NCBI GenBank assembly: GCA_028281285.1
Contig: JANQKF010000007.1
Location: 1-52,092 of the forward strand
Source: Cyclobacteriaceae bacterium
GTDB lineage: Bacteria; Bacteroidota; Bacteroidia; Cytophagales; Cyclobacteriaceae
Reading direction: 5' to 3'
Length of the DNA stretch: 52,092 nt
Shown: in pieces, positions 7,596 to 49,970 of the stretch
Position numbering within the stretch: position 1 is the stretch's first letter
Layout: each line of letters starts with the position of its first letter
Position numbers and translations under genes: made by a program
Notes under the pieces: generated by a model
Told to the model about the DNA's origin: nothing
The model's database searches: none
What the model saw: the letters and a program-made list of their open reading frames with translations, nothing else

Positions 7596-10013
7596 CTATC
7601 GGAATATCCGGATCATTCCGTTCAGAGATTCTTCCAGGACCTTCTCGTTTACATTCACACGATAGAAAGCGGTATACGAATAATTCCCTTCGGGAACGTC
7701 TTTTCCTTCGAAGGTACCGTCCCAAACCTGGTTTTGATCTTCGGTATAAAAGACGAGTTGTCCCCATCGGTTGTATAGCTTGAATACAAATTCAGGCAAT
7801 GGACAGCCCACCACTGCGCCAAACGTATCGTTGACACCATCTCCATTAGGACTAAAGGCGGTAGGAAAACTTACACGAGGTACGAATTCGGTCACCTCAA
7901 AATCAATGGACACCTCGCATCCATTTTGGTCCACAATCCGCAAACGGTAGTCTCCGGCCGTGAGCCCAGTGGCCGGTACTCCGGTTTGATTTGTACCAAG
8001 CGACCAGAAGAATTGATAATCAGGCACACCTCCCACTCCTGCAATATTGATTTCACCATCAGCCGTACCCGGACAAATCGGTTCATTGATCAGGGAATTC
8101 AAATCGGGCAGCAATTCTGGTGGTGATCCGATCGTGAAGTTCTGATTGGTAGTGCACCCATTTTCATCGGTGATCATCACATTATAAGTCCCGATGGCCA
8201 GCTCGTTGATCACGTTCGTTGTGGTTTGTCGGTTAAAATTAGCCCCTGTCCAGTTGTAGGTATAGCTGCCTGTACCTCCGGATACCGTTGCCCGTGCACT
8301 ACCATCACTGCTATCAAAACAGAGTGTCGGTAATTGCTCAATAGTATCAATCAACAGTTCATCCGGCTCGGTGACTTCAAGCTCCGCAACAATCGCACAA
8401 CCTGATTCATCGGTCACTGTGTACTCGTAAGTTCCTGCCCTCAGATTTTCCAAAAGATCACCTGCACCTCCGTTATTCCAGCTTATGGTTTTATCTCCCA
8501 CTCCACCGGTCACGGTGAGCTGAATACTGCCGTTCGCATCACCGTTACACAATGGTCTTGCAATTTGATTGGCAACAATGAGTTCCGGTAAGACCGTTAC
8601 ATCCAGTGTGTCCGAAAACCCTTCACAATCCGCGATCCCTGGGTTAAATTCCCTGAAAAACACCTTTCCCGGTGCATTTCCATTCCAATCTACCTCGACA
8701 AAGTTGTCCGTTCCGGTACTGACAATCGTACCGTTTTCTACCCCCCATTGATACTCTGAACCCGGAACAAAAGGAACCTCATATCGGACGGCATTCCTTT
8801 CCGCATAGCATACCTGCTGATTCCCCATAGGTGTTTCCGGCTCTAGTCGTTTGTTGATTTTCACATCATGAAAAACAGTGTCAGCTGTGCAGCCCGAAGA
8901 GTTACTTACCACCAGTTTGACCTGTGCATTATCGTTCGCTACTCCCCAGTCAACAGTGATTTGATCAGTGCCTTGTCCGGAGGCTATCGTTCCTCCTTCG
9001 ACTACCCAGGTATAGTTGTCTATATTGGTTCCACTGGTCGTATAAGGCACTCCGACCACAGATGGGCAAACGGATGCTGCTCCCGTTAGCTCATCTACGA
9101 CTGGCTGAGGATTTGTCTCTACCTGAAAACTGGTCAGTGACGAGCATCCACTGCCCGGGGTGGTAAGTCGCACATAGATCGTCTGAGGGTTGCTCGTATT
9201 GTTGAAAGCATTCCCGTTCAATGCCCTGTCTCCGGTGATGGCATCATCTTCGGTCACATGAAAGGTCACGTTCCCTGACTGACCATTTCTGATGACATCG
9301 ATATTGGCATTTAGATTAAAAGTGGTTAGCCCATCTCCATCGGGGTCACATTCCTGGAGATCGGGAGGTTGATTGGCCTCAGCCGGTCGGGAAATCCTTG
9401 CCGATCCTCCCCAACTGATCTGAAAGCCAGCATTGCTTCTGGAGAAATTGTCAATAAATATGATATACTCATCTCCTGCTTGTGCACTAATCGGACGCAC
9501 AAATCCATTTCCCTGCGCCCCCGGACCTTCGCTGTCATCACTTTCCCCGCTTCTCAAGCCTGTATCAGCTGGCACACCTGCTGATTGTGGATTTGTTGAG
9601 GAGCAACGAATTGAAGCCCCCAAATTATTACACGAAACATTAGGACCATACACGGCAAAGTCAAAATCGTCCGTACCGTTATTGGCCGAAATATTGAATT
9701 CCAGGGTCCCTGCTCGCTCAATGGGCACCTTCAACCAAAGGCTTTGGTTTTCAATAAAACCACAGGAAGGAAGAATGTTGTTGGCGTTGGCAAAGTCATT
9801 CTGACCTACGCCATTCGAGTTTAGACTAAGGCTCGTATTTCCGCAAACCACCAATAAGTTGGCACAGTCTGCCGTTCCCTGGGCATTAGATTGATGAGAA
9901 ATCATCAAAAAAAGGCACAAGCCAAACAGGCGGAGCCACCAGTTCTCCTGAACAAAAAAATCCCTTCTAATTATCACTAGTCTAAGGTGAAAATTCTTGT
10001 AATAATAACGCAT
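7596..10013 (-). CDS. Large T9SS-exported surface protein with SprB-like repeats and gliding-motility C-terminal domain
   Basis: About 805 residues from ATG 10013; ATG 10034 would add seven. A signal peptide (LRLFGLCLFLMISHQSNAQ) is followed by a domain resembling pre-peptidase C-terminal folds (SLWLKVPIERAGTLEFNI). Next come two PKD-like modules (NYTWVVEGGTI, EYQWGVENGTI) and three SprB-like repeats (LCNGDANGSIQLTVTGG, LCFDSSDGSARATVSGG, ICPGTADGEINIAGVGG). The end is the gliding-motility-associated, type B sorting domain: AFSPNGDGVNDTF, FKLYNRWGQLVF, VWDGTFEGKDVPEGNYSY. The family is exported by the type IX system and attached to or released from the cell surface; an adhesive role is inferred. 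Confidence 0.92.
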   Translation of the reverse strand: MRYYYKNFHLRLVIIRRDFFVQENWWLRLFGLCLFLMISHQSNAQGTADCANLLVVCGNTSLSLNSNGVGQNDFANANNILPSCGFIENQSLWLKVPIERAGTLEFNISANNGTDDFDFAVYGPNVSCNNLGASIRCSSTNPQSAGVPADTGLRSGESDDSEGPGAQGNGFVRPISAQAGDEYIIFIDNFSRSNAGFQISWGGSARISRPAEANQPPDLQECDPDGDGLTTFNLNANIDVIRNGQSGNVTFHVTEDDAITGDRALNGNAFNNTSNPQTIYVRLTTPGSGCSSLTSFQVETNPQPVVDELTGAASVCPSVVGVPYTTSGTNIDNYTWVVEGGTIASGQGTDQITVDWGVANDNAQVKLVVSNSSGCTADTVFHDVKINKRLEPETPMGNQQVCYAERNAVRYEVPFVPGSEYQWGVENGTIVSTGTDNFVEVDWNGNAPGKVFFREFNPGIADCEGFSDTLDVTVLPELIVANQIARPLCNGDANGSIQLTVTGGVGDKTISWNNGGAGDLLENLRAGTYEYTVTDESGCAIVAELEVTEPDELLIDTIEQLPTLCFDSSDGSARATVSGGTGSYTYNWTGANFNRQTTTNVINELAIGTYNVMITDENGCTTNQNFTIGSPPELLPDLNSLINEPICPGTADGEINIAGVGGVPDYQFFWSLGTNQTGVPATGLTAGDYRLRIVDQNGCEVSIDFEVTEFVPRVSFPTAFSPNGDGVNDTFGAVVGCPLPEFVFKLYNRWGQLVFYTEDQNQVWDGTFEGKDVPEGNYSYTAFYRVNVNEKVLEESLNGMIRIFR

Positions 10014-21468: not shown

Positions 21469-24400
21469 TCAAGTCTCCATTGATCCTTTGTAGATCTTCC
21501 TACTAGAGGGAATGTATTCCGAAAGCCCACCTTCAATCCGAATTCTGCTCGCCAGAAATGCACAAACCAATAGTAGAACGCTGGATAAGACAATGTCGGC
21601 TTCCATTATCCCTGTGACATTTTGCAGCTGCAATTCAAACCAAACAACTTGCACAAGAGCATTGAACAGAAAATAAACCCCCAATAACATTCCCATACGA
21701 TGTTTTGGGATGAGCTCTGCCAAAATGACTAAACTGAGTACTTCCATTACTATTCCTAAAGAGTCCTGCAGTATGACTTGGGTAATTAAAACCTCATAAC
21801 TACTCCTGACCAGTGGCAAGGTCCCTCCTAGTAGCGCAGAAATAATGAACACCCATATGAAGAGTCGTTTAATAGAAACTCTATGTATAAGCCTCTTCAG
21901 GAATACTAACCAGACTATTCCCAAAATCATGCTGATATTGTATCGATTGATCGTCAGCCACTCTGTTCTCTCCTCTAAAAGGGTATTCGCAGGGCTCCAA
22001 TGCATGTTGTAAGACAAATTGAATAAGAGATATATTACACATAGTATGTAAAATCCCGTATTGATGGGTTTCCCTGTCAATTGGTCTGCTCCGTAATCTA
22101 AGGCCCAGGTGCTCACCCCCGAACTGTCTGCGGTCAACCTTCTAATCGTGGTCAACCCAAAGAGCATAATCAGAACACCCCCGATAATAGCAACAATCAT
22201 ATAGGTTTCTCCTGTGAAGTCTATCACGGAGCTAATCCATTCGGGCAATAAATGAGCCACCGGAAGGGTTGCACTGACTAGAATACCTAAAGTACCAAAA
22301 CCAATGATGCGTTGTTCGCGATTTGATAAGCGTAAGATGTAAATTCTTAATAGAGTCAAGACGGCATAATAAGCCATAGAAACCAATGAGGTTGTAAGCA
22401 CATAGGACAACGATTCGTTCAAGAAAAAACTCGATAAAATGCTTGCAGCAGCACCTACAATTACAAAGGCAACAAGCAGTCTCTTTGAGACATCAACTCC
22501 TCTTATCAGGAAGCGATCCACGATGTATCCAATTGCCAAAGGAGCAATCACTCCCACAATCAATTTAACCGATAGAGCAGATTGATAGAGGGAGATATAA
22601 TCAAACTCCTCAAGTTTAGTGTTTTCAAGCTGAAATAGTAATATGCTTAAAAATCGTTCCTGGAACGTCAGTCCAACAACTGCCAACAATGAAATAAGAG
22701 TGGCCCAAATCGCAAGAGGATTATATTCATCAATATGAATCCCAAAAAACTTGATTTGATTCGGTGGTTTGATTCGATCTTCTTCAACTGTCTTTTCAAA
22801 GGCACTCGTTTGTTCCTGTTTTTGGGCACCCGGTTCTACCGGCACTTTTTGGGTATCATGATAGAATGTCTGTCCTTTATTGACTTTGGCATTGGAATAT
22901 ACGGTGACTACCAGAGATATTAACATTACGACCACAAAGACAATAACCAACCCAATCCCAGACAACAAGAGTAATAACTCGTTGTCGGCTTCTAGAATCG
23001 CAGAGATGACAATAAATATGGAGGCCACTCCTGCCGGAATCAATCCGGTAAACAATCCCGGGAGCCAAATTCTGCCGTACGTCAGTTTTCTTGGAAACTG
23101 ATCTACGAATTTATCTTGGGCACGCCTCATAAATACTACAGTAGCGATCAGGTACAAGCCCAGGTAGAGTTCGACACCTCCATTTTCCCACAAGATCGCT
23201 GGAGATGCAACAGTCAGGATCAATGTCAATAGCCCTCCTTCCACAAGGCTTATTCTTCTGACCAACGCCTGTTTCGGTGTCTTCTTTTCCTTTATTTTCT
23301 TCTCGAATTTTATGAATGATGCAGTTACCAGCCAGAATACCGCCACTATGAACGCAGCAAGAAGAATCCAATAGACATTAAAATTTGGGGAGTTGCTTAC
23401 AATTAGGCCAAACAATGCCCCCATGACAATGCCGGCAAACAAACACTTATTGAGTAGCGAGTAATTTGCAGAAGTCTGCTTCTGTTCGTGAAGGTATTTA
23501 ATAATGCTTTGTGTGCCGGCTGATGACCACAATACATACAACAAGCCTCCGGCTACGGTAATCCCGATTCCTGCAAGCCCGAGAGTGCCATCGTCTGTGG
23601 TGTATTCTGAATTGATGAGCCAAACAATAGCCAACAGGATCAAAGCTCCTACAGTGCCTGGGGCCAGGCGAATAGCCGTATTCATGCTAGCTCCTGAGTC
23701 GAATAATTGAACTATTAAACGCATTGCCACGGCCAGTGCCCCAATCACCAGTACAAACAGAATGACGAATGTATCAGAATCTAACTGATAGAATGCGGCC
23801 AAATCCCATTGGTAGGACATGGTGGTGTGAAGAATAGCCATCAATATGCCCGCAAAAAGGACATAGTAGATTGTTCGAGCCATTACTGGTTGACTCAATG
23901 TTCCGAAAAAGGTTAGCCTTTTGTTGCCAACGCTTCGGATAATCAGTGTTGCCGGATCGACTGGTCTTCTTAGGAGCGATAATATAAAGGCCAATCCCAG
24001 AAAAACTCCTGCAATAGTCGGCATAGGCCCTTGTTGGAGCTTAAAAACCAAAATTACAATTATGGCCAACAAGCCAAAGACCAACTGGAATGATGTCGAA
24101 TGTTTTAAGTCTTTCTTGCTTCTGGCAAAACCAATCAACGAGGCGCCAAACCCCAATGTATTAGTTGCAGCCAGTAACGCCCCCAAAGCAAAGGCCCCAA
24201 AGGCTTCATCATACATGATTTCAATTCCCTGAATTGTGAACTCAAAAACATCATACAACTCAAGAATGACTGAAAGTATTCCGGTGATCGCCAATGGGCT
24301 TAAGAAAAAGGCCGATACGGTGAATCGATAGGTAAACACTCTGACCATTGCTCGAAACAAAGTCAACGTAAGCCAACCACCAAGTCCTGCAAACATTAGG

Positions 24401-26433
24401 TAAATTGATACGACTCCAATGACATTGGTCGAATCAACAAAGGTATACAGGTACATCAAGACGGCCAGTACACTGAACACCAATGCGTTGGACCAAAGAA
24501 AATCAAATACGCGAGACCATATCCAATCAACGGTGACCGTTTTTCTGGAAGCTTTTACGATTTTCTCAACCGTCTGGCCGAATTTTTCGGGGATTTTGAC
24601 CGATAGACGGTCGTCCATGAAATTCAGAAAGATCTTTTCTTGCAACGGATTTTCCTCCACCCCTTTCGACCTCCCGATTGAACTCAAAATCTGCCTTCCC
24701 ACCCTGGCTATCCATCGTTCGTCCTGAACACTGATTTCTAGCTTTATTCCAGCGATCGGATCATCCTTTGCAGCGCCTAATAAGTTGAATATTTTTCTAC
24801 GGATGTTTCTCTCCTGCCCGAAGGGGATCTCTCGGATCAGGCGATCGCGCAACCAGTCGGGCATCCTTCCCGCCCTAAACCATGGAAGACGAATCAATGC
24901 TTCCAGCAGTTTCTGACAGTAAAGCATGTCATCATTGAGCTTTATGTTATGACCAAAGTAAAGCGTCAGGTTCCAGTTCAGTTCGGGATACACTGCACAG
25001 GCACAGATCCATAGAAATCCGGCTTCACCCAAATACACCTTCAGTTCCTGAACCAATCGATCGATGTACTTCCCGTTGGGGGCATCATCCTTTAACCAAT
25101 ATTCGGCATTATTGTCAAGAGTGGTCGAGAGGTCACGCTCCCTGTCCTCTGTTTTCAAATTCATTTGAATCTCCTGCACCAAACCTAACAAGCCTTTCTC
25201 GTTAGCCGGGAGTAATCGGAAACGACCCTGTGTCAGGGCTTGCTCTTTGTGGTGCCACTGATCTGGTGTGCGCAATGTAAGCAGTGTCGGATCCTCCCAG
25301 AAATGAAGTTGATCGGTCCATTGGGCTACCTCTTCGGTCAGCGGATTGATAAAATCATGGCCATCACTGAAAATTACCAGTCGGTGATCGGGGTACTTTA
25401 CCCGTAAGTCGAGCAGGGTGAAAGCACCACCACCGGATTGGGTAGCGAAGCAGCTTCGAGGGTCCTTATCAAAATAGAACTTATCAATATAGACCTCATT
25501 GGAACTAAGTTCGGCCAAAAGTGAATCGATGAATTGCGAATGGTGATCCTGGTAATTTGATTTGTCAATCAGCACCAGGTATTCCGGACTAATCAGTCGC
25601 TGCCCACCTATCCTTGTAAATAATCCACCCTTTTTAATGGTTTCTCTTACCGTGTTGGCCACATCAATTTCAGGGGATTCAACCAGCACATGCTTTCTGA
25701 GTTCCTGGGCGGTTTTAAGTAAGGCCATCGAACGAAATACCTGGCTTGTTTTCTTAGGTACAAACAGGTCAATCGATCGGAATTTCTCCCTGGTTTGATC
25801 TCTGCGCAGATAGTTCTGGCGAACTTTCTTTTTTTCCAAATAACCCCATATGCTGAAAAAACTGACACCCGCAACAAAAATGAGAATAGCATAGGTGTAG
25901 CTGGTGTTCGCGTTGGTGTTGTCAATCGGATCGTTTTCACCTTCCGGAGGCACCAAAGGCTCCGTCACCGTAGAGGTATCATCAGGGGTCGGGTCATCCG
26001 GATTACGGCCTGAAGAACTGATGATAGTGATATACGTAAACAGCCCGACCAGCAGGATCACCATACCGCTCATTATTATCCGCCCCGTCCGTTTGATTGG
26101 TCTGACCTCTTCCTTTAATTCAGTGGGATCATATTCTAAAAATTCCTGTTCATTGGACTCTTCATGTTGGCGATAATGTGCGGTCAGGTAGCTTGAAGTC
26201 CAGTTTTTGAATCGCTCCGGGAAATCAAATTGTTGCTCTTTCGACTTACAAAGAAGGGGAGCTATCAGCGACTGGAGGTCATCATAGTTAGTCGGGAGAC
26301 TCCCTTCCGCTGAAAGCTTTACTAGTAAATCCTGAACGCTCAAGTATTCCGCAGTACCCACACCATAGTCATGAAGGCGCAGGTCTTCAATCAGATGATA
26401 GAGATTATCAAGTACTTCGGAATAGAGGTTCAT
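21469..26433 (-). CDS. Giant membrane protein: CoxE-type N-terminus, vWA-like domain, ~28 membrane segments ending in an MFS-like module
   Basis: A 1654-residue protein. Residues 1-80 (LRLHDYGVGTAEYLSVQDLL) resemble the helical N-terminus of CoxE/vWA partners of MoxR ATPases. Two membrane helices flank residues 121-198. Residues ~285-420 look like a vWA fold: LVLIDKSNY (Asp290, Ser292 of a partial metal site), then LVIFSDGHDF. Residues ~450-560 (YLGEAGFLWICACAVYPEL) form a helical domain. From ~645 to 1180 are about 16 membrane helices. Residues ~1230-1640 add 12 more, with an MFS motif-A-like GYIVDRF. It is the last gene of the Trypco1-protease-MoxR operon, six bases after MoxR. The membrane part may be a sensor, channel or anchor; which one is unknown. 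Confidence 0.85.
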   Translation of the reverse strand: MNLYSEVLDNLYHLIEDLRLHDYGVGTAEYLSVQDLLVKLSAEGSLPTNYDDLQSLIAPLLCKSKEQQFDFPERFKNWTSSYLTAHYRQHEESNEQEFLEYDPTELKEEVRPIKRTGRIIMSGMVILLVGLFTYITIISSSGRNPDDPTPDDTSTVTEPLVPPEGENDPIDNTNANTSYTYAILIFVAGVSFFSIWGYLEKKKVRQNYLRRDQTREKFRSIDLFVPKKTSQVFRSMALLKTAQELRKHVLVESPEIDVANTVRETIKKGGLFTRIGGQRLISPEYLVLIDKSNYQDHHSQFIDSLLAELSSNEVYIDKFYFDKDPRSCFATQSGGGAFTLLDLRVKYPDHRLVIFSDGHDFINPLTEEVAQWTDQLHFWEDPTLLTLRTPDQWHHKEQALTQGRFRLLPANEKGLLGLVQEIQMNLKTEDRERDLSTTLDNNAEYWLKDDAPNGKYIDRLVQELKVYLGEAGFLWICACAVYPELNWNLTLYFGHNIKLNDDMLYCQKLLEALIRLPWFRAGRMPDWLRDRLIREIPFGQERNIRRKIFNLLGAAKDDPIAGIKLEISVQDERWIARVGRQILSSIGRSKGVEENPLQEKIFLNFMDDRLSVKIPEKFGQTVEKIVKASRKTVTVDWIWSRVFDFLWSNALVFSVLAVLMYLYTFVDSTNVIGVVSIYLMFAGLGGWLTLTLFRAMVRVFTYRFTVSAFFLSPLAITGILSVILELYDVFEFTIQGIEIMYDEAFGAFALGALLAATNTLGFGASLIGFARSKKDLKHSTSFQLVFGLLAIIVILVFKLQQGPMPTIAGVFLGLAFILSLLRRPVDPATLIIRSVGNKRLTFFGTLSQPVMARTIYYVLFAGILMAILHTTMSYQWDLAAFYQLDSDTFVILFVLVIGALAVAMRLIVQLFDSGASMNTAIRLAPGTVGALILLAIVWLINSEYTTDDGTLGLAGIGITVAGGLLYVLWSSAGTQSIIKYLHEQKQTSANYSLLNKCLFAGIVMGALFGLIVSNSPNFNVYWILLAAFIVAVFWLVTASFIKFEKKIKEKKTPKQALVRRISLVEGGLLTLILTVASPAILWENGGVELYLGLYLIATVVFMRRAQDKFVDQFPRKLTYGRIWLPGLFTGLIPAGVASIFIVISAILEADNELLLLLSGIGLVIVFVVVMLISLVVTVYSNAKVNKGQTFYHDTQKVPVEPGAQKQEQTSAFEKTVEEDRIKPPNQIKFFGIHIDEYNPLAIWATLISLLAVVGLTFQERFLSILLFQLENTKLEEFDYISLYQSALSVKLIVGVIAPLAIGYIVDRFLIRGVDVSKRLLVAFVIVGAAASILSSFFLNESLSYVLTTSLVSMAYYAVLTLLRIYILRLSNREQRIIGFGTLGILVSATLPVAHLLPEWISSVIDFTGETYMIVAIIGGVLIMLFGLTTIRRLTADSSGVSTWALDYGADQLTGKPINTGFYILCVIYLLFNLSYNMHWSPANTLLEERTEWLTINRYNISMILGIVWLVFLKRLIHRVSIKRLFIWVFIISALLGGTLPLVRSSYEVLITQVILQDSLGIVMEVLSLVILAELIPKHRMGMLLGVYFLFNALVQVVWFELQLQNVTGIMEADIVLSSVLLLVCAFLASRIRIEGGLSEYIPSSRKIYKGSMET

Positions 26434-26439
26434 AAATGA

Positions 26440-27450
26440 TTATGCTTCCTTCCACTTATCAATATAGCTCTTCACCAAAGCCAGATCATCGCGTGATTTT
26501 GCCAGCGTACTAACGGTTGCTTCGAGGTGTTCAACATTCTGTTGAAGTGGCTTTTGAAGTGCGTCTGCATTCATTCTATGACGTAGCGCATCTAACCACA
26601 CCAGTAATTCAGCAGTGGCAGGCTTTTTTCGTATCCCGTTGATACCTCTGACATTTTGAAAGAATTCGATCGCTTCATTCAGAAGACCTGTTCCCATCTC
26701 ACGATTTTCACCTTCCAAAGGCTCGAAATCGGCAATTCTGGCCATGGCGATCTTAGCCAGTTTTTCCTTGTCAGGAAATTTGATGTGATGAAAAACGCAC
26801 CTACGCAAAAATGCATCAGGCAAATGCTTTTCAGAATTGCTGGTGATTACCACGATCGGGCTGTATTCTTTGTCGGCCCTTACTGCTTCATTCTTCAACT
26901 CAGGAATTCTGAAATACATTTCCTCAATCTCATTTAGAATGTCGTTGGGAAAATCCCTTGGGGCCTTATCAATTTCATCAATCAGTACCACCGACCTGGC
27001 TCTTTTGCCTACGTCAAAACCTTCTGGCAAGAGATGGTTTATTTCCTTGGGGTCTTTTGTCTTTAGAATGGCTAGCCCAAGCGCATTATAGGTAATATAA
27101 TCTGCTGCCTTGCCGCTGGCTTCCTGGTTATAATGGGCATTGAATAATCCCAGCGAATTAAACTGGTAAAAAAGCTCGTTGGCAGTACTTGCCGAACGAG
27201 TTTCAAACTTGAGTGGACCCTCCAATCCGAGTTCCCAAGCAATTCTATTGGCCAATTGAGTTTTACCCGTACCTGGCTCTCCTGTAAGAAGAAGCGGTTG
27301 ACTAGTAAGAATGGCCACATTGATCGCATTGATTAAGTCCTTATCGTCTTCTATTGTATAATTAGCCGGATTGGTACGAGAACGATGTTTATTCGAAGGT
27401 AATGAAGTCTTGTCCTTCTTAGTAATTCCGTCAAAGAATGGATAATCCAT
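26440..27450 (-). CDS. MoxR-family AAA+ ATPase
   Basis: A 336-residue AAA+ ATPase. Walker A is GEPGTGKT (57-64), Walker B VVLIDEIDKAP (154-164), sensor 1 is ITSNS (202-206), and LRRCVFHHIKFP supplies the arginine region. MoxR proteins remodel partner proteins together with vWA-domain proteins, which fits the vWA-like gene immediately downstream. It lies third in a four-gene minus-strand operon, 28 bases after the protease gene. The catalytic residues are all present, so it should hydrolyse ATP. Confidence 0.93.
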   Translation of the reverse strand: MDYPFFDGITKKDKTSLPSNKHRSRTNPANYTIEDDKDLINAINVAILTSQPLLLTGEPGTGKTQLANRIAWELGLEGPLKFETRSASTANELFYQFNSLGLFNAHYNQEASGKAADYITYNALGLAILKTKDPKEINHLLPEGFDVGKRARSVVLIDEIDKAPRDFPNDILNEIEEMYFRIPELKNEAVRADKEYSPIVVITSNSEKHLPDAFLRRCVFHHIKFPDKEKLAKIAMARIADFEPLEGENREMGTGLLNEAIEFFQNVRGINGIRKKPATAELLVWLDALRHRMNADALQKPLQQNVEHLEATVSTLAKSRDDLALVKSYIDKWKEA

Positions 27451-27478
27451 ATCGGTTAATTTTTATTTAGTTTTTACC

Positions 27479-29002
27479 CTATCTGAGGGTTTCCTTAATT
27501 TTATTTACCACTTTTTCCAAAGGCATCAATGCCTCTTCCCCTTGCCCCTTATTATTATCAAAGTAGGCGAGAATAGTCTCTCGAAATTTGGAGAGATCCG
27601 TTCTCATCTTAAGCGCTTTTCGTTCACTTTGTTCTTCAAACCACTGGAGGAAGTGATCGCGGTCTATGCCTGTTAGTCGAGGAAATACGAAGCCACTAAA
27701 ATTCTGTAGCGCTCCAAAATCAAAATTTTCGATAGCCATCTTCACTGCAGCCTCCTCCTCTTCTGAAAGCTCACCTTCAGCCTCTCCACCATAAATCACT
27801 TGTAGTATGACCATCATGACTCCCTGGTTGCTACGCGCAGGCCATTGTTCCCAAAAACCACAGAAGTCCTCCTGAAACTCAGGCGTTAACTTATCAAGAG
27901 ATACATTGGTGTGAAAGACAATGACTCCATTGTGCACCCCATAGAGGTGCTTTGATAACGCCTCGATAGTGAAATTGCCAATCAACTCTTTGGCATGTTT
28001 AGAAGAAATATCATAGACCACTTTCTTGGTAAGCTCATCGATATCCTTGTATTGACGTGGCCAGAGAAAACCCATGAATTTTGGTTTGGAGAGGTGTTCT
28101 CCCTTATTGAACATTTCGTCAAGTTTAAAATGCCTGAGCCGATTTCTGTAGATCTCATGCCCTTGCAAGCGCATACCGTGCAATATTCCTATTCCGTGAG
28201 TGGGTTCTCTGAGTGTATGCTTCGATTGCAGCTTCTCCAGTAATTTAATATCCTGCTCATTGCGGTCGATCAAACAGGTGATTTCCCGTTGTTCATGTTC
28301 GAAAGGATCAAATCCATCTTCAGCCTCCTCGTCCTCACTTGCCAGCTTCTTTTGGGTCCATTTAATGAGTCCCCCAAGTTTTTCCTCCAGATGCTGTGGC
28401 TTTATTCCGTAAGAAATATCCTGTAGCCTAAACAGAAAATCTCTTTTCTGGATGGCCCTTAACATACCAACCACCTTCAATTCATCGCCTTCTTCAAGGT
28501 GCTCCGTTTCGACAAAAATTGGCCCACCACTAAACCCTAAGGTGATTCCATCGGTATCGTCCAATTGGGTCTCAATGATAACCCTATTACGTCTTACCTG
28601 ATCCCTGATCAAACCATAAGCATTCAGCCCCTCTGGTTTTTCTTTAGGAAACCCAAACGCGGTGAATTGTTGGTTGATGTGATCACCGGGGTTATCAAAA
28701 ACCACCGAATATGCCGACTGAGGAAGAGCACCTTCAACTTTCAATACCGCCATATCTCCATCAGCCGAATCGACCCAAAGTTGTGTAAGTAATTTGGCGG
28801 TAAAAGGCTTGATATCAGGAAAGATCCAACTGCAGGTCACAGTATTGGGCAAGGTGAAATTGCCAGTACGCTGCAATTTTGAAGGAACAATCACATGGGC
28901 ACATGTAAGTATATGACCTTCATCAGAGATTAGAAAGCCTGTACCTACAGGCTTACCATCACTTGCATGGATGCGCACTATGCTCCGTTGAAATAAACTC
29001 AA
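27479..29002 (-). CDS. Trypsin-like serine protease with iSTAND-like C-terminal region
   Basis: A 507-residue protein. The N-terminal ~200 residues are a chymotrypsin-fold protease with the full triad: His36 in TCAHV, Asp83 in DGDMAVL and Ser158 in GFSGGP. An acidic linker (~220-238) leads to CLIDRNEQDIKLLEKL and GIGILHGMRLQGHEIYRNRL. This pattern looks like the inactive-STAND (iSTAND) domain known from bacterial conflict systems: it keeps the DRxxQ and GH marks but has no usable Walker A. There is no signal peptide, so the protease is cytoplasmic. With Trypco1 and MoxR beside it, a regulated effector protease is the natural reading. The iSTAND label is by eye. Confidence 0.85.
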   Translation of the reverse strand: MSLFQRSIVRIHASDGKPVGTGFLISDEGHILTCAHVIVPSKLQRTGNFTLPNTVTCSWIFPDIKPFTAKLLTQLWVDSADGDMAVLKVEGALPQSAYSVVFDNPGDHINQQFTAFGFPKEKPEGLNAYGLIRDQVRRNRVIIETQLDDTDGITLGFSGGPIFVETEHLEEGDELKVVGMLRAIQKRDFLFRLQDISYGIKPQHLEEKLGGLIKWTQKKLASEDEEAEDGFDPFEHEQREITCLIDRNEQDIKLLEKLQSKHTLREPTHGIGILHGMRLQGHEIYRNRLRHFKLDEMFNKGEHLSKPKFMGFLWPRQYKDIDELTKKVVYDISSKHAKELIGNFTIEALSKHLYGVHNGVIVFHTNVSLDKLTPEFQEDFCGFWEQWPARSNQGVMMVILQVIYGGEAEGELSEEEEAAVKMAIENFDFGALQNFSGFVFPRLTGIDRDHFLQWFEEQSERKALKMRTDLSKFRETILAYFDNNKGQGEEALMPLEKVVNKIKETLR

Positions 29003-29019
29003 GGGTGGCTACTTTTGCT

Positions 29020-29343
29020 CTACTTTTTCCAGACTAAGGTCACATTGAGGTGTGCTTCTGTACCCGCCTTGGCGAGCAAGGCACCGGCACCCGCGCTGAA
29101 CTTCACACCAAATTCCACTGTGATTTCATTGGGCTTATTTACGGTTTCACCGAGTGTTTTGACCACTTTGGAAGAAACCAAATTGATCATTCCAAGTGCT
29201 GACTCGAATTTCTTTGTAGCACGCCCTGTAATTCCATCATGCGCACTAATTTCAAGCTCACCACCAATTGGCTCATCATCGCTAAGGTCGATCATTATAG
29301 AATCAGAACCATCTTCTAATTCATATTCAATTATCATAGACAT
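29020..29343 (-). CDS. Trypsin-co-occurring domain protein (Trypco1-like)
   Basis: A 107-residue beta-rich protein starting IIEYELEDGSDSIMIDL and ending FGVKFSAGAGALLAKAGTEA followed by LNVTLVWKK. That C-terminal pattern (EVxFGxKxSAxAGAxxAKAGxEAxxxVTLxW) is, as I recall it, that of the Trypco1 domain, which occurs next to trypsin-like proteases in conflict systems. It would act as an adaptor or regulator of the protease 18 bases downstream. It is the first gene of the operon. Function is known only by association. Confidence 0.85.
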   Translation of the reverse strand: MSMIIEYELEDGSDSIMIDLSDDEPIGGELEISAHDGITGRATKKFESALGMINLVSSKVVKTLGETVNKPNEITVEFGVKFSAGAGALLAKAGTEAHLNVTLVWKK

Positions 29344-43257: not shown

Positions 43258-44862
43258 ATGGAAGAACTAAGAAATCCTTTACAAAAACTGTTCAGCCACA
43301 TCAAATCTAAAATGGTTTTTAAGGACTTCTTCCATGAAGTCAAAAGCCACCCCGACTATCCTACTCTAAAATCCATTTCGGATACACTGGAGAAGTTTGG
43401 AATTGACAATAGCCCTGTACGCATAAAACCGGAGGACCTGTACAATTTAGATGATCCGTTTTTGGCCTATGTTAATAACAAAGGGCATAATGAATTTGCA
43501 TATGTTCATCCTTTACCGAGCCAGAAAATAAAATTCACTACTGAGAATAGAGCAGAGAGCACAGTACCTATTGATGAGTTTGCAGGTCAGTTTAATGGAA
43601 TTGCCGTATTGCTTGACCTAAAGAAAGCAAAGCCTTCTATTGTGAATCTCGAGCGTTCAAAAAGTCAACGGTTCTTCGGCTTTCTAATTGCCACAATTGC
43701 TGTGAGCACCTTGACCCTATTAGCATTCAATTTCTACAAAAGTTCAGGCTCCTTTTTTGTCAATAGTACTTCTATTGTTTTCCTGACCGCCCATCTGGTG
43801 GGGCTCTCATTGGCCATAGCTTTGGTGTTGAAAGGTTTGGGTGAATCAGGTACCCTACTTAACAAAGTCTGTCGTGTGGGCAAGAAAGCAGATTGCGACA
43901 GTGTGATCAAAAGCAAATATTCAACGGTTTATGCCGGAATCAAATGGAGCGATATAGGCTTCATTTATTTTTTAATTGCACTATACCTGATGAGCGTGAA
44001 CAGTATGGGGTTTGTAACACTTATGGCCTTTGTCGCTTTTCCCTATGTATTTGTGTCTTTATACCAACAGGTATTCCTTATTAAAAAGCTTTGTCCATTG
44101 TGCCTGGGGGTTGTTACGGTGCTCACCATAAACTTCGTCATCGCTCTTGCCTTGATATCAGATCTTAACTTATCTCTCGATCAGGCATTTGAATCCGGAC
44201 TTACCGTAGCCCTCATAGGCGTTTTGTACCTGATCGTCAAGTCGCATATAGAATCCAGGGGAGCAAATACTGTGTTGCTTCAACGCTATAATCGTTTAAA
44301 GCGAATTCCTGATGTCATTCAAACTGTTCTTAAGCGTGAAGAAATATTAGTGATTCCAGAAAAAGCACCATTGCAATCCATGACGTTTGGAAGCAACGAA
44401 GAAGATACGATCAGAATCCAAGCGTTGTTAAGCCTACATTGTGGATATTGCGCGAATGTTTTCAAAAAACTTGACTCTCTGTTAGAAAATAACAATATAA
44501 ACGTAGCACTTTACTTAAGCCTGAAAGCCAATAACCATAGTCAGGTTTCTACCCTGGAAAACATTGTGAATGCCTATTATTCCGGTCATACCACATTGGC
44601 CTGGAGCTTACTTAGAGGTTGGTATCAAAAACCTAATAATTCAAAAAAAACATGGACTGGTGAGCCCAATGAACTGGTAAAGAAAATTGTCTTTTCGACC
44701 CGTTACATTATGCAATCCAATCAAATTTCTTCATTACCCAAACTGTTTGTTGAAGGTATTGAGAAATCCTCGCACTACAGCCTGACCGAATATGCGAAGT
44801 ACGCAAGGACGGTCAAAAGTCTAAGTGCAATACCTAAAAGAGAAATGATCATTAATACATAG
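43258..44862 (+). CDS. VKOR-thioredoxin fusion with a C39-like N-terminal domain
   Basis: A 534-residue protein. Residues ~1-120 look like the fold of C39 peptidases (HPDYPTLKSISDTLEKFGID, then FLAYVNNKG) but without a catalytic Cys, so they may bind peptides only. Residues ~140-330 form a vitamin K epoxide reductase domain with the full cysteine set: C205 and C213 eight apart, and CPLC (279-282). The C-terminal thioredoxin-like domain has CGYC (395-398). Such fusions make disulfide bonds. It precedes a cysteine-rich exported peptide, which is the likely substrate. The pairing is inferred from order and chemistry. Confidence 0.85.
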   Translation: MEELRNPLQKLFSHIKSKMVFKDFFHEVKSHPDYPTLKSISDTLEKFGIDNSPVRIKPEDLYNLDDPFLAYVNNKGHNEFAYVHPLPSQKIKFTTENRAESTVPIDEFAGQFNGIAVLLDLKKAKPSIVNLERSKSQRFFGFLIATIAVSTLTLLAFNFYKSSGSFFVNSTSIVFLTAHLVGLSLAIALVLKGLGESGTLLNKVCRVGKKADCDSVIKSKYSTVYAGIKWSDIGFIYFLIALYLMSVNSMGFVTLMAFVAFPYVFVSLYQQVFLIKKLCPLCLGVVTVLTINFVIALALISDLNLSLDQAFESGLTVALIGVLYLIVKSHIESRGANTVLLQRYNRLKRIPDVIQTVLKREEILVIPEKAPLQSMTFGSNEEDTIRIQALLSLHCGYCANVFKKLDSLLENNNINVALYLSLKANNHSQVSTLENIVNAYYSGHTTLAWSLLRGWYQKPNNSKKTWTGEPNELVKKIVFSTRYIMQSNQISSLPKLFVEGIEKSSHYSLTEYAKYARTVKSLSAIPKREMIINT

Positions 44863-44904
44863 TACTAGTACTCACAATTATTTCAAATTTTAAATTTTAA
44901 AAAC

Positions 44905-45123
44905 ATGAAAATTATTGGAGAAAAATTAACTCAAAACGAATTACTTCTCATTAAAGGTGGAGTAGAAGAATGTTGGTCTTGCTATTGTTACGATGGATCT
45001 GCCAACTGGGTAGGTAACTATAGCCATGCAGCAACTGCCAATGCAACAACGAATACGTATTGTTATTCTGGTGGTAATTGTAATTATGGAGAGTATGACG
45101 CTTGTGAATTATTGCAAGAGTAA
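44905..45123 (+). CDS. Double-glycine leader precursor of a six-cysteine peptide
   Basis: A 72-residue precursor. The leader (1-19) is the classical LTQNELLLIKGG, cut after Gly18-Gly19 by C39-peptidase exporters. The core (20-72, 53 residues) has cysteines at 23, 26, 28, 53, 59 and 67. It is rich in Tyr, Ala, Thr and Asn and has no lanthipeptide or thiopeptide enzyme beside it. Six cysteines suit three disulfides. The adjacent VKOR-thioredoxin and C39 exporter fit. Bioactivity is unknown; it could be a bacteriocin, signal or structural peptide. It is small, but the leader and setting make it convincing. Confidence 0.85.
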   Translation: MKIIGEKLTQNELLLIKGGVEECWSCYCYDGSANWVGNYSHAATANATTNTYCYSGGNCNYGEYDACELLQE

Positions 45124-45137
45124 TTCACAGTAACTAC

Positions 45138-45170
45138 TTGGACCCCCGGTTAACCAGATTGGGGGTCCAA
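45138..45170 (+). promoter_or_regulatory. Strong hairpin between the peptide gene and the propeller gene
   Basis: A perfect 10-bp stem TTGGACCCCC/GGGGGTCCAA with a 13-base loop, 14 bases after the peptide stop. There is no T-run, so it is not a clean terminator. It may protect the peptide mRNA or lower expression of the genes behind it. Confidence 0.6.
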
Positions 45171-45184
45171 TAGGTAATCTTCTC

Positions 45185-46360
45185 ATGACAAAAACCATTA
45201 CTTACGCTTGGCTGCTGCCAATTATATTCTTCACATCATGTAGCAATACGAGTTTACAGGGTGAATTAATTCGCATTCCAGTCGCAGAAGAATTCTCAAA
45301 TAAAGCCGATGGTAGTATCAGCCTAAAAAAGCTATTCACAAACATAGAATATATAAGACTTGAAACTTCGCCCGAAACACTCTACAAGTTTGAGCCAAAA
45401 GTGTATACCTATAATGACTACTTAGTTGTAAAAAGCCATAAAAGAATTTCTCTGTTCAGCAGAAAAGATGGCTCTTATCTAAGAGAAATAGGTCATTTTG
45501 GAAATGACCCTAACGGTTATATGAATTCATTACCTTTTCAAGAAATCAACGCGTTTGATGGATCTTTATATGCCCAAGGATGGCGTTACGATCTCTTGAA
45601 ATATTCAATACTGGAGGGTAAGCTAATTAGCTCAGTTCCTAACCCTTTGAGCGAATTCGATAAAGTTGAAGGAATCCTTACGTCTTATGCCAGTATCAAA
45701 AGTGATACACTAGTCGGGTTTTTAACCAATGACTCAGGTAACCAAGATGTGAAGTTGTTGAAATTCGACAAAAATGGAAAAATATTGGCCATTTACGAGA
45801 ATCATCTCTCTTTTATTGATAACCCAAAAAAAATGTCTTTCGATCCGCTGGAAGCACATTTTTTTAGCTTCAATGGTCGATTAAAATTTAAAGAAACTTT
45901 TAATGACACATTATTTGTAGTGAATACAACTAAGCTTGAACCCGACTATTACTTTGAACTAGGTAAGTATAGCCCGGACTATTCCATGAAAGAGAACATT
46001 AATCGATTTACCGACAAATCGCACATTTTTGTTTCCGACATATTAGAAACCAATAACACCTTGTATTTTTCATTAGAGCTTAATCAAGAGCGCCATATTG
46101 GGGTTTTTGACAAGACTGAAGGAGACCTGGCAATTACTAGAGGTAATGGCATTGTAAATGACATCGATAATTTTGTTTCGTTCTCTCCAGATTATCTCAA
46201 TGATAAAAATGAAGTAATTGGTGTAATTCCAGCCGAAAGCGTCAACCTGTGGTTTCAAAATAACCCCGATAAAATCAGTCAACTACCCGAAAAGCTAAAG
46301 CAGTTTCGTAGCATACAACCGGAAGATAACCCAGTAGTCATGATCGCAAAGTTAAGGTGA
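45185..46360 (+). CDS. 6-bladed beta-propeller lipoprotein
   Basis: A 391-residue lipoprotein (signal peptide ending FFTSC, Cys19). The body has the repeats of the Bacteroidota 6-bladed beta-propeller family: SISLKKLFTNIEYIRLETS, ISLFSRKDGSYLREIGHFG and similar blades. These lipoproteins often lie in gene clusters with double-glycine peptides, and this one follows the precursor. It may bind the peptide or act in its export or immunity. That role is not shown by sequence alone. Confidence 0.85.
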   Translation: MTKTITYAWLLPIIFFTSCSNTSLQGELIRIPVAEEFSNKADGSISLKKLFTNIEYIRLETSPETLYKFEPKVYTYNDYLVVKSHKRISLFSRKDGSYLREIGHFGNDPNGYMNSLPFQEINAFDGSLYAQGWRYDLLKYSILEGKLISSVPNPLSEFDKVEGILTSYASIKSDTLVGFLTNDSGNQDVKLLKFDKNGKILAIYENHLSFIDNPKKMSFDPLEAHFFSFNGRLKFKETFNDTLFVVNTTKLEPDYYFELGKYSPDYSMKENINRFTDKSHIFVSDILETNNTLYFSLELNQERHIGVFDKTEGDLAITRGNGIVNDIDNFVSFSPDYLNDKNEVIGVIPAESVNLWFQNNPDKISQLPEKLKQFRSIQPEDNPVVMIAKLR

Positions 46361-46497
46361 ACACTCTTTGACCATCTGACCATTGCGTTCGGTCATTATT
46401 AAAAAAACTTTAAGGAGATATTCAGCAATACTGATTTGACCCGATTTATTGAAAAAATTGTTTTTGAAAACCGTACTAATCCATAACAAGTAACCCA

Positions 46498-48699
46498 TTG
46501 AAATTTCCATTCTATCGACAACCAGACACCATGGACTGTGGGCCAACTTGTTTAAAAATGGTCGCGCAACACTATGGCAAAACTTATAGTATTCCCAGAC
46601 TAAGAGAACTTAGCTACCTGACAAGGGAAGGCGTCTCGATGATGGGGATAAGCTACGCAGCCGAAGCCATTGGGCTGCATACCCAAGGTGTTAAACTCAC
46701 TTATGAGCAGCTCAGGAATGAAGCTACACTTCCGGTAATCGTTCATTGGGGCCAAAACCACTTTGTAGTGGTTTATAAGATAAAAAAGGGCAAGAATCAG
46801 AACGACACTATTTTTGTTGCCGATCCAGCCCATGGACTGCTGAAATACACCAAAGAACAGTTTCTCAATAAATGGAAACAAGATAAAATCAAAGGTTCAG
46901 GCAAAGGTATTTCGCTACTTATAGAACCTACACCCGATTTCTATAAAGAGAATCCACATGAAGAAGGAAAGCTAAGTGCGAAGTATCTCCTTGGTTATTT
47001 AAAACCTCACCGAAAATACATTATTCAACTGGTTCTTGGATTACTTACGGGAAGCCTTATCAGTCTAATCTTCCCCTACCTTACGCAGTCCATTGTTGAT
47101 GTCGGTATAAACAACAAGGACATGGGCTTTGTTGTGCTGATCTTAATAGCACAACTGGTCCTTACTTTTGGCCAGACAGCCAATGGCTTGATACGAAACT
47201 GGATTTCTCTGCATGTTACTACCAGAGTGAGCATTTCCTTGATTGCCAACTTTCTGGCAAAGCTTATGCGCTTACCTATTGCATTTTTCGATGCTAAGAT
47301 GATTGGTGACATTATGCAAAGGATCAGTGACCACAATAGAATTCAATCCTTTCTAACCAAGTCGTTAATAGATATCGTTTTTGCTGTAATCACTTTGGTC
47401 CTGTACAGCTTTGTATTGGCCACTTATAATTATAGTATTCTCGGTGTGTTCTACCTTGGAAGCATACTTTATGTGGGTTGGATTTTAATATTCCTGAAAA
47501 AAAGAAGAGATCTCGATTACAAAAGGTTCACTCAAGCCTCGGAGAATCAAAACAGCATTGTACAATTGATTACGGGCATGCAAGAAATAAAGCTCAACAA
47601 TGCAGAAAAGAGAAAAAGATGGGAATGGGAACGTATTCAAGCAAAGCTTTTTAAAGTAAGTGTTGGTGGTTTAATCCTAAATCAGAATCAACAATTAGGT
47701 TCTACGTTCATTGATCAAACCAAGAATATTTTCATTTCCTTCCTTTCAGTTCAAGCAGTCATTAACGGAGAAATGACTTTGGGAATGCTTGTGGCCATAC
47801 AATATATTATTGGTCAATTAAATGCTCCTATTCAGCAGTTCATAGGGTTTACTCAAGTCACTCAAGATGCCAAAATAAGCCTGGAGCGATTAAGCGAAAT
47901 TCATGAAAAATCAGATGAGGAAAAACCCGAAGATCAAAGACTGCAAAAGACCCCAAAAAACGCTTCAATACAGGTAAAGAACCTTACCTATCAATACGAA
48001 GGTCCTGCATCAGAGAAGGTGCTGAATGATGTTTCAATAGAAATTCCGGCCAACAAAGTTACAGCCATAGTTGGTGCAAGCGGTAGTGGAAAGACCACCT
48101 TAATTAAACTACTTCTCGGTTTCTATCAGCCCGTAGGTGGGAGCATCATGTTAGGTCCTTTTCCATTGGACAGGTATAGCCCATCTGAATGGAGGCGCAG
48201 GTGCGGAGTTGTAATGCAAGATGGCTTTATTTTCTCGGACAATATCTTAAATAACATTGGTATAATTGACGATATCCCGGATATCGAAAAGGTTGATCAG
48301 GCACTCGAAGCCTCAAACATTAAGGAATTTGTAAACTCACTCCCACTGGGATATAATACCAAAATTGGAAATGACGGTAAAGGGATTAGTTCAGGCCAAA
48401 AGCAAAGGCTTCTAATTGCCAGAGCTATTTACAAAGATCCCGAATACCTGTTTTTGGATGAAGCGACAAATGCGTTGGACGCAAATAACGAAAAGGTAAT
48501 TATGGAAAACCTCAACAAATTCTTCAAGGGAAGAACGGTTGTTGTTGTAGCCCATAGACTGAGTACGGTCAAAAATGCAGATCAAATCATTGTATTGGAC
48601 AAAGGCAAGGTGGCTGAAATTGGAGATCACCAGCAGCTTGTTGATTCGAAAGGAGCCTATTTCGAACTGGTTAAGAACCAACTGGAACTCGGAAATTAA
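46498..48699 (+). CDS. C39-peptidase-containing ABC exporter
   Basis: A 733-residue exporter from TTG 46498. The N-terminal C39 peptidase has the triad Cys14 (MDCGPTCL), His88 (GQNHFVV) and Asp109 (VADPAHG), so it can cleave double-glycine leaders. About six membrane helices follow (~165-450). The ATPase has Walker A GASGSGKTT (~525), signature SSGQKQR (~630) and Walker B LFLDEATN (~651), with the His switch AHRLST. It should cut and export the 72-residue precursor. The HlyD-family gene follows 11 bases later. Confidence 0.95.
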   Translation: MKFPFYRQPDTMDCGPTCLKMVAQHYGKTYSIPRLRELSYLTREGVSMMGISYAAEAIGLHTQGVKLTYEQLRNEATLPVIVHWGQNHFVVVYKIKKGKNQNDTIFVADPAHGLLKYTKEQFLNKWKQDKIKGSGKGISLLIEPTPDFYKENPHEEGKLSAKYLLGYLKPHRKYIIQLVLGLLTGSLISLIFPYLTQSIVDVGINNKDMGFVVLILIAQLVLTFGQTANGLIRNWISLHVTTRVSISLIANFLAKLMRLPIAFFDAKMIGDIMQRISDHNRIQSFLTKSLIDIVFAVITLVLYSFVLATYNYSILGVFYLGSILYVGWILIFLKKRRDLDYKRFTQASENQNSIVQLITGMQEIKLNNAEKRKRWEWERIQAKLFKVSVGGLILNQNQQLGSTFIDQTKNIFISFLSVQAVINGEMTLGMLVAIQYIIGQLNAPIQQFIGFTQVTQDAKISLERLSEIHEKSDEEKPEDQRLQKTPKNASIQVKNLTYQYEGPASEKVLNDVSIEIPANKVTAIVGASGSGKTTLIKLLLGFYQPVGGSIMLGPFPLDRYSPSEWRRRCGVVMQDGFIFSDNILNNIGIIDDIPDIEKVDQALEASNIKEFVNSLPLGYNTKIGNDGKGISSGQKQRLLIARAIYKDPEYLFLDEATNALDANNEKVIMENLNKFFKGRTVVVVAHRLSTVKNADQIIVLDKGKVAEIGDHQQLVDSKGAYFELVKNQLELGN

Positions 48700-48710
48700 A
48701 TGAAACTGAA

Positions 48711-49970
48711 ATGCCTGAGATTAATTTAGAAGACCATAGCGAAGAAGTACAAGAGATTTTGGGCCATATACCTAAATGGATTATTAGATGGGGAATATCT
48801 ATCCTCTTTATCATTGTGGCTATAATTTTTTTTGGCAGTAGTTTTATTCCCTATCCTGAAAAAACCACCGTTCCGATTAAAATCACTTCTCAAAACGCGC
48901 CAGCTACATTAGTTGCTAAACAAGCAAGCAATCGCATCGCTCAATGGTTCAAGAAAGATGGAGAAACAGTGCAGAAAGGTGATGTGCTTGCCGTTTGGGA
49001 AACCAATGAAGAATACACCGATATTCTAACACTTCAAAAACTACTAGGACCAAAAAAAGAGACTCCACTCCCCTTGCCGAATGAATTGACCCTTCCAGGT
49101 TTCCAGACCGAAATTCGGGAATTCAATAAAACATTAAATCATTTGGCTTCTATTCAGAATTCTCAAAAACACTTTGTAGAAATAAAAAAAATAGAAGCTG
49201 ATATAAAGAAGAAGACTCGTGCTATTGAATTATCTAAAAGGCAGCAGGTAATTAAAGAAAGGGAGTTTGAGTTACTCGAGAATAAGTTCAAGCAAGATTC
49301 CATCTACTACCATGATGGCAGCTACGGTATAGTAAAAAGTGAATACGAAGCTGAAGTGTTGAAATTCTTAAGACAAAAATCCACCTTCCTGGAATATCAA
49401 ACTTCTTTGCTGGACCTGGACGAATCACTTGCTGCTTTAAAGAATCAAATATCAGAGATTAAAGATGACCGCAAAGACCAAATCTTGACTGCAAAATCGG
49501 ATATGAATGAAGCCCTGTTTGCATTACAGCAAAGAATCGACAAATGGAAACTGGACAATCTGCTAGTCGCTCCAACAAACGGAAAACTAGACAGGTCCTC
49601 ATTTTGGAGCGAAAATCAATTCATACCCAGTGGAGAAATGCTTGCAGCGGTATTGCCCAAGGATCCAGAGCGTGTTGTTTGCAGAGCCATTGTGGACGCA
49701 AATATGATTGGGTCGATCAGCAAAGGACAGAGTGTATTCCTTAAGCTAGATGGCTTTAATTCTATGGAGATGGGATCTATTAAAGGACAAATCGAATCTG
49801 TTTCCAATATCCCATTTGACGGGAAATATTTCGTTAATATCAATTTACCTAACGGCTTAATAACTATGGAGAATAAAACACTGCCATTGATTCAGGAAAT
49901 GACAGGAATAGCGGAAATCATAATCTCCGAGGGAACGCTTCTAGACAGGCTTGTGAAGATAGGGCTTTGA
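48711..49970 (+). CDS. HlyD-family periplasmic adaptor subunit
   Basis: A 419-residue membrane-fusion protein. One membrane helix lies near residues 24-45 (WGISILFIIVAIIFFGSSF). The barrel-sandwich half reads IAQWFKKDGETVQKGDVLAVWE, a long coiled-coil arm follows (~150-265), and the second half returns at VAPTNGKLDRSSF. It couples the ABC exporter to an outer-membrane exit. No TolC-like gene is in the window, so an outer-membrane partner must lie elsewhere. It is the last gene of the peptide cluster. Confidence 0.92.
   Translation: MPEINLEDHSEEVQEILGHIPKWIIRWGISILFIIVAIIFFGSSFIPYPEKTTVPIKITSQNAPATLVAKQASNRIAQWFKKDGETVQKGDVLAVWETNEEYTDILTLQKLLGPKKETPLPLPNELTLPGFQTEIREFNKTLNHLASIQNSQKHFVEIKKIEADIKKKTRAIELSKRQQVIKEREFELLENKFKQDSIYYHDGSYGIVKSEYEAEVLKFLRQKSTFLEYQTSLLDLDESLAALKNQISEIKDDRKDQILTAKSDMNEALFALQQRIDKWKLDNLLVAPTNGKLDRSSFWSENQFIPSGEMLAAVLPKDPERVVCRAIVDANMIGSISKGQSVFLKLDGFNSMEMGSIKGQIESVSNIPFDGKYFVNINLPNGLITMENKTLPLIQEMTGIAEIIISEGTLLDRLVKIGL

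Follow-up and report, generated by a model that had tools for sequence, protein, structure and literature searches.

In a 52,092-nucleotide contig of a Cyclobacteriaceae bacterium (GenBank assembly GCA_028281285.1, contig JANQKF010000007.1; analysed whole and referred to here as the window), a four-gene minus-strand operon encodes, in order, a Trypco1 protein, a trypsin-like protease with an iSTAND-like tail, a MoxR-type AAA+ ATPase, and a giant protein with a predicted vWA domain and a transporter-like C-terminus. The operon is probably an iSTAND-type vWA–MoxR ternary conflict system, an accessory locus that would serve as a defence switch anchored in the membrane, driven by ATP and armed with a protease. 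Membership in the ternary systems is well supported by sequence comparison, with much less certainty as to which end of the system is the sensor and which the killer. The initial annotation of this DNA had proposed a nucleoside triphosphate-dependent conflict system built of Trypco, trypsin, iSTAND, MoxR and vWA parts, and this reading was supported by family profiles, by iterated profiles, by gene order in distant genomes and by a patchy distribution.

The reading frames and Pfam profiles confirmed the four genes and their strand, with tight spacing across the operon, and the similarity of the first product to Trypco1 was a direct profile match. The catalytic triad of the protease (His36/Asp83/Ser158) was intact, as had been claimed, and its Trypsin_2 match reached 47 bits. 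The ATPase likewise retained its Walker A (GEPGTGKT) and Walker B (LIDEID) motifs; VMAP-type N-terminal aromatic motifs were absent from it, the first tryptophan being residue 72 of 336. Promoter and terminator scans gave nothing beyond the yield of shuffled sequence.

The iSTAND identity of the protease tail was more difficult to establish. No iSTAND match was obtained in the direct Pfam scan, and none was placed at the operon locus by a whole-genome family search; both results count against the proposed assignment. Because the direct scan was blind to the domain, an iterated profile of the tail was built and run on the open reading frames (ORFs) of 83 loci gathered through the vWA core, a search that is silent on such tails elsewhere. 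The profile grew from 16 to 65 ORFs, of which 56 were strong matches (E ≤ 1e-8, more than 200 residues) outside the operon's own locus. PF19995 (iSTAND) scored 49 to 81 bits, relative to a cut-off of 24, in eight of the ten whole relatives scanned, with no iSTAND score in the other two (L049 and L074); the N-termini of these ten were trypsin, caspase, TIR, CHAT or DUF4062 domains, or were short. In a 43-row alignment (A2) of 39 relatives with the tail, three protease-only proteins and the operon's own sequence, iSTAND was detected at E ≤ 1e-3 in 30 of the 39, and the operon's row was negative. BLASTP of tail residues 380-506 against an iSTAND-bearing protein (P0025) gave E 2e-4 for that single comparison. 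The canonical P-loop (GxxxxGK[ST]) was absent from the tail and from 56/56 relatives, as is expected of an inactive STAND. A structure search with a single model of the whole protease-iSTAND protein returned match lists filled by the protease domain. The iSTAND part of the operon protein is unusually diverged; from the iterated profile and the scores of its relatives, we take the tail to be a probable diverged iSTAND domain, and the operon was assigned to the iSTAND-type systems on that footing. The precomputed domain list of the protein database gives PF19995.6 for this protein (P0121; 27479-29002), whereas scans with PF19995.5 were negative; the two models seem to differ in reach.

Kinship with the ternary systems was also apparent from gene order. 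Among 80 loci with a related vWA gene, taken from public genomes and many of them on short contigs, a MoxR gene lay upstream of the vWA gene on the same strand in 62, an ORF matching the iSTAND profile did so in 61, and both did so in 57. The third component preceded MoxR in 57/57 loci with both upstream, tightly in 46. This count demanded that both partners lie upstream of the vWA gene on its strand; partners were found elsewhere in just two of the 80 loci, one in which the sole MoxR gene is downstream (L055) and one with a further pair on the other strand (L060). Moreover, the complete set of Trypco1, trypsin-tail, MoxR and vWA genes recurred in the operon's order in a Candidatus Parabeggiatoa locus (L035) and a Magnetococcales locus (L049). 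Such recurrence of one gene order in distant genomes led us to reject a chance cluster.

Closer to home, in searches made with these two proteins alone, the trypsin-iSTAND protein was found in 0/58 other relatives' genomes and the vWA core in 0/117; both sets included the 18 congeners. The core profile matched in 15 of 394 other genomes of the phylum, none of them in the operon's own class, and in three of those 15 (G120, G167 and G465) the match was confined to the N-terminal ~80 profile positions. The flanking genes surE and cysS were found in 17/19 and 19/19 genomes of the genus, respectively, our genome included. The junction could be read in 11 of the 18 congeners, where surE and cysS lie close together on one contig; in the other seven, either surE was not detected or the two genes were widely separated or split between contigs. 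The four operon genes were absent from all 11 junctions read, ten of which hold other ORFs between dcd and surE, these two genes being neighbours in the eleventh (L124). Because the protease-iSTAND protein and the vWA core are absent from the congeners and the operon is absent from the 11 junctions, the operon is an accessory insertion between housekeeping genes at a variable junction. A core housekeeping locus, which would have spoken against a conflict system, was rejected on these counts. At the surE-dcd junction of the closest relative, the operon is replaced by a gene for a 443-residue AAA/STAND-like ATPase (L114:1791-3119, plus strand; AAA_16 28.1 bits, below the cut-off of 32.6), so this junction may be a landing site for defence-like genes; by eye, the cargo at the same junction in other relatives was not defence-like.

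The vWA giant consists of a shared core and an unusual membrane end. The core (residues 1-620) matched 236 proteins at E ≤ 1e-3 among 7,993 scored, and the 119 other proteins among the matches listed were 28-38% identical to it. The relatives carry exchanged C-termini, for example caspase, FGE-type, CHASE2, WD40 or PASTA domains. The four-helix domain at the N-terminus (residues 1-95) was present in the AlphaFold model. Of the two aspartates at the positions of a vWA metal site, Asp290 was kept in 21/21 rows of alignment A1 and 34/38 rows of alignment A3, and Asp357 in 18/21 and 28/38, respectively. VWA_CoxE was matched by 3 of 38 relatives and not by the operon's own vWA region; a PDB sequence search with the vWA profile yielded nothing useful, and a Foldseek search with the vWA core ranked the NorQD chain first, yet weakly and tied with other Rossmann-like folds. 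Conserved residues and the model suggest a vWA fold for the giant, short of proof.

Beyond the core, 25 helices were predicted from a 19-residue hydropathy window at a threshold of 1.6, no topology predictor being used; the next highest count among the 119 other listed proteins was 20 (P0034). Two blocks were distinguished. Block 2, the last 455 residues, matched MFS_1 (PF07690) at 39.0 bits (cut-off, 33.4) over profile positions 31-345 of 347; a PDB sequence search with it gave nothing useful, and in 295 other genomes of the phylum it had a single hit, short and weak (82 residues, E 3.5e-4). Block 1 had no Pfam match at E ≤ 1 and no match in the same 295 genomes. Residues 630-1654 retrieved only themselves from the protein database (7,987 proteins scored; candidates about 0.55-1.75 times 1,654 residues long), and the two blocks showed no similarity beyond self to each other, to the 119 listed proteins or to the locus ORFs. 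A core common to other phyla, joined to a C-terminus with no relative found, is the module exchange expected of ternary systems. The C-terminus is predicted to be a polytopic membrane module, MFS-like at its end, and in its size and kind it appears new among these systems. The words MFS, permease, facilitator and multi-TM are absent from the main text of PMC7159879 (its supplementary tables not covered), where transporter occurs only in a reference title; in passages of PMC8195603, MFS occurs once, for another system, and no C-terminus of this sort is given for ternary systems. The class of system is already known, and prior listing in supplementary data is possible; the novelty lies in how large the membrane C-terminus is and of what kind, and in the recurrence of POT and MFS modules at that position.

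This recurrence was seen elsewhere in the vWA family. Of 64 complete vWA ORFs, 17 had at least four predicted helices after the core. A Pfam scan covered 26 multi-helix vWA proteins, 7 of them from the database and 19 from the loci. Three scored above the cut-off for a transporter family: a vWA–POT–caspase protein from a Saprospiraceae metagenome-assembled genome (L018; PTR2 210.8 bits, caspase 58.8 bits), a vWA–POT protein from a Bacteroidota metagenome-assembled genome (L080; 200.9 bits), and a vWA–MFS_1 protein (P0029; 82.6 bits). A further protein (L006) had a sub-threshold ABC-2 match, and the remaining 22 had no match or other domains. Transporters are therefore a minority, and most such C-termini are without a family assignment. 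The polytopic membrane ends of seven proteins (L012, L017, L019, L070, P0034, P0066 and P0076) fell below every Pfam cut-off and make up an unassigned class. The POT modules of L018 and L080 kept an ExxERFSYY stretch, which we take to be the POT proton-coupling motif. In the iSTAND proteins of these two loci, just 46 and 49 residues precede the iSTAND domain. Third components with a short N-terminus (fewer than 150 residues) occurred in 10 of 13 multi-helix systems versus 14 of 34 others (Fisher p 0.049; rank test p 0.013), a weak tendency drawn from the 47 of 80 loci that were usable and uncorrected for relatedness or choice of cut-off; the operon studied here, with trypsin on its third component, runs counter to it. 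The iSTAND proteins of L018 and L080 start with a brief KNIVDxSxI...GxVxIGD stretch, and GNxxIGD-like copies occur in a small protein encoded nearby; the two may pair as homotypic adaptors, conceivably of the type known from bacterial amyloid signalling.

Comparison with known systems placed the operon nearest the iSTAND-type MoxR–vWA ternary systems (PMC7159879, Kaur et al. 2020). These share with it a MoxR protein, a vWA protein (predicted here) with a helical N-terminus and variable C-terminus, and an iSTAND third component able to carry trypsin; N-terminal membrane segments on the vWA protein, predicted here, are found in about 28% of the cases described there. The operon differs from them in that its vWA C-terminus is a very large polytopic MFS-like module. 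VMAP ternary systems (PMC7159879) share the pairing of Trypco1 with trypsin and the order third component–MoxR–vWA, but here the third component is iSTAND-like rather than VMAP-C and the MoxR protein lacks the aromatic N-terminal motifs. Membership among them was rejected; no VMAP family was matched at E ≤ 1 and the tail groups with iSTAND proteins. The iSTAND2/TERNS3 ternary systems (PMC8195603) are alike in logic, in an inactive STAND third component (iSTAND2) and in the use of trypsin; in contrast to them, vWA and C-terminus form one gene here and the third-component relatives score with PF19995. The protease also resembled the Lamassu effector LmuA (PADLOC, 50 bits), a similarity confined to the protease domain; Lamassu membership was rejected, as a PADLOC search at E ≤ 1, covering the four operon genes only, brought up no LmuB, the SMC partner. 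NorQ and NorD form a MoxR/vWA couple as well, in which activation of cNOR is reported to require both ATP hydrolysis by NorQ and the VWA domain of NorD (PMC9976466); unlike the operon, that couple has no protease and no iSTAND protein, and its client is a separate protein. For ternary complexes, an ATP-driven reorganisation has been predicted, with proteolytic effector release in a subset and the protease seen as a processor of effectors (PMC7159879), and vWA–MoxR–VMAP modules, accompanied by CARF-type proteins, occur in the vicinity of type III CRISPR loci (PMC10910872). Our literature search found no experiments on ternary systems of the iSTAND kind.

Table 1. Features of the operon in the window, and associated proteins at loci L080 and L018
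Feature	Coordinates	Strand	Basis or remarks
Four-gene operon	21469..29343	-	order Trypco1, trypsin-iSTAND protease, MoxR, vWA giant
Trypco1 protein, 107 aa, operon gene 1	29020..29343	-	PF19493 80 bits; CU044_2847 family 71.8 bits; relatives adjoin trypsin-tail genes in L035 and L049
Trypsin-like protease fused to probable iSTAND, 507 aa, ternary-system third component	27479..29002	-	
Trypsin/HtrA-like domain, about residues 1-215, His36/Asp83/Ser158	28358..29002	-	
Probable diverged iSTAND domain, about residues 243-507, without Walker A motif	27482..28276	-	iterated profile; relatives score PF19995
MoxR-type AAA+ ATPase, 336 aa, Walker A Lys63	26440..27450	-	AAA 41.3 bits, AAA_5 36.7 bits
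vWA giant, 1654 aa: N-terminal helical domain, membrane hairpin, predicted vWA, conserved linker domain, predicted polytopic membrane C-terminus	21469..26433	-	
N-terminal helical domain, residues 1-95	26149..26433	-	AlphaFold model helices 3-20, 27-42, 50-61, 65-95
Two predicted membrane helices, about residues 119-137 and 181-199, with acidic loop between	25834..26079	-	hydropathy, loop charges
Predicted vWA domain, residues 235-425; Asp290 after strand 1, Asp357 after strand 4	25159..25731	-	
Conserved helical linker domain after vWA, residues 435-560 (ACAVYPE, LPWFRxGxMPDWLR)	24754..25131	-	conserved columns, model
Membrane block 1, residues 621-1199, about 14 predicted helices, no family	22837..24573	-	hydropathy
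Membrane block 2, residues 1200-1654, MFS-like	21472..22836	-	PF07690
Short-stretch iSTAND proteins and small neighbours	L080:7049-7843, 8049-8957; L018:14189-14620, 7894-8913	L080 +; L018 - and +, respectively	

Elsewhere in the window, plus-strand genes in a low-GC (guanine plus cytosine) stretch (43258-49970) form a cluster for peptide maturation and export that looks like a bacteriocin-type system. Their products are a C39-peptidase ABC exporter, an HlyD protein, a DUF5128 protein of the 6-bladed-propeller type and a VKOR protein whose C39-peptidase match is sub-threshold.

As a defence switch, the operon would probably work in the following manner. The giant would span the inner membrane, leaving its N-terminal domain and vWA region on the cytoplasmic side, with a MoxR hexamer docked on the latter. 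The iSTAND-trypsin protein, kept together with Trypco1, would be the sensor or adaptor, its protease unfired. On invasion, MoxR would spend ATP and remodel the vWA complex, thereby freeing the protease to cut a partner or target and altering the fused membrane module, and the infected cell would then stop or die. By analogy, the vWA motor could act in cis on its transporter-like module as NorQ/NorD acts in trans on cNOR, which is membrane-embedded.

The flow of the signal might also run the other way within the same ternary system. The transporter-like C-terminus would then be the sensor or a decoy, responding for example when a phage enters or when membrane potential is lost, and killing of the cell would fall to the trypsin fused to iSTAND. 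We regard this arrangement as possible, if somewhat doubtful. A direction of this kind, from a vWA sensor to a protease effector, is proposed in PMC10907252 for related vWA-lectin systems; the triad of our protease is intact, and variability is greatest in the C-terminus, which would suit a recognition part. However, the vWA–POT systems of L018 and L080, with so few residues ahead of iSTAND, have no enzyme there to serve as effector, an objection qualified by the caspase on the L018 vWA protein itself and by the adaptor-like neighbour in L080.

A role outside conflict seems quite unlikely. The MoxR/vWA couple could mature or regulate its own fused transporter, with the protease acting in quality control, much as NorQ/NorD and similar couples mature metabolic enzymes; moreover, the POT modules of L018 and L080, with their presumed coupling motif, could be working transporters. 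A housekeeping chaperone, however, fits poorly with an operon missing from 11 of 11 junctions and a trypsin-iSTAND protein and vWA core missing from all close relatives searched, or with a C-terminus that differs from system to system, and Trypco1, trypsin and iSTAND are partners in predicted conflict systems. Decay of the operon into an inactive copy, in which the membrane region would be a fused remnant without a role, is scarcely credible: the missing C-terminal relatives and the divergence of the iSTAND part would suit it, but the 1,654-codon frame is open, the catalytic motifs of the protease and MoxR are intact, and the spacing is tight.

Many vWA–MoxR ternary systems have been predicted, and this operon is suited to asking which end senses and which end kills, being compact, with obvious protease (Ser158) and ATPase (Lys63) mutants and a membrane module that can be cleanly removed. 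More speculatively, and we consider this unlikely on present grounds, it may belong to a class of conflict systems whose MoxR/vWA motor mechanically opens or rewires a cis-fused transporter, MFS-like here and POT in L018 and L080. The effector of such a class would be a leak in the membrane or a proton shunt, set off by the ATPase and, here, by the protease, in place of a soluble toxin. Should the transporter-like module prove to be the effector, membrane energetics would join the outputs of the ternary systems.
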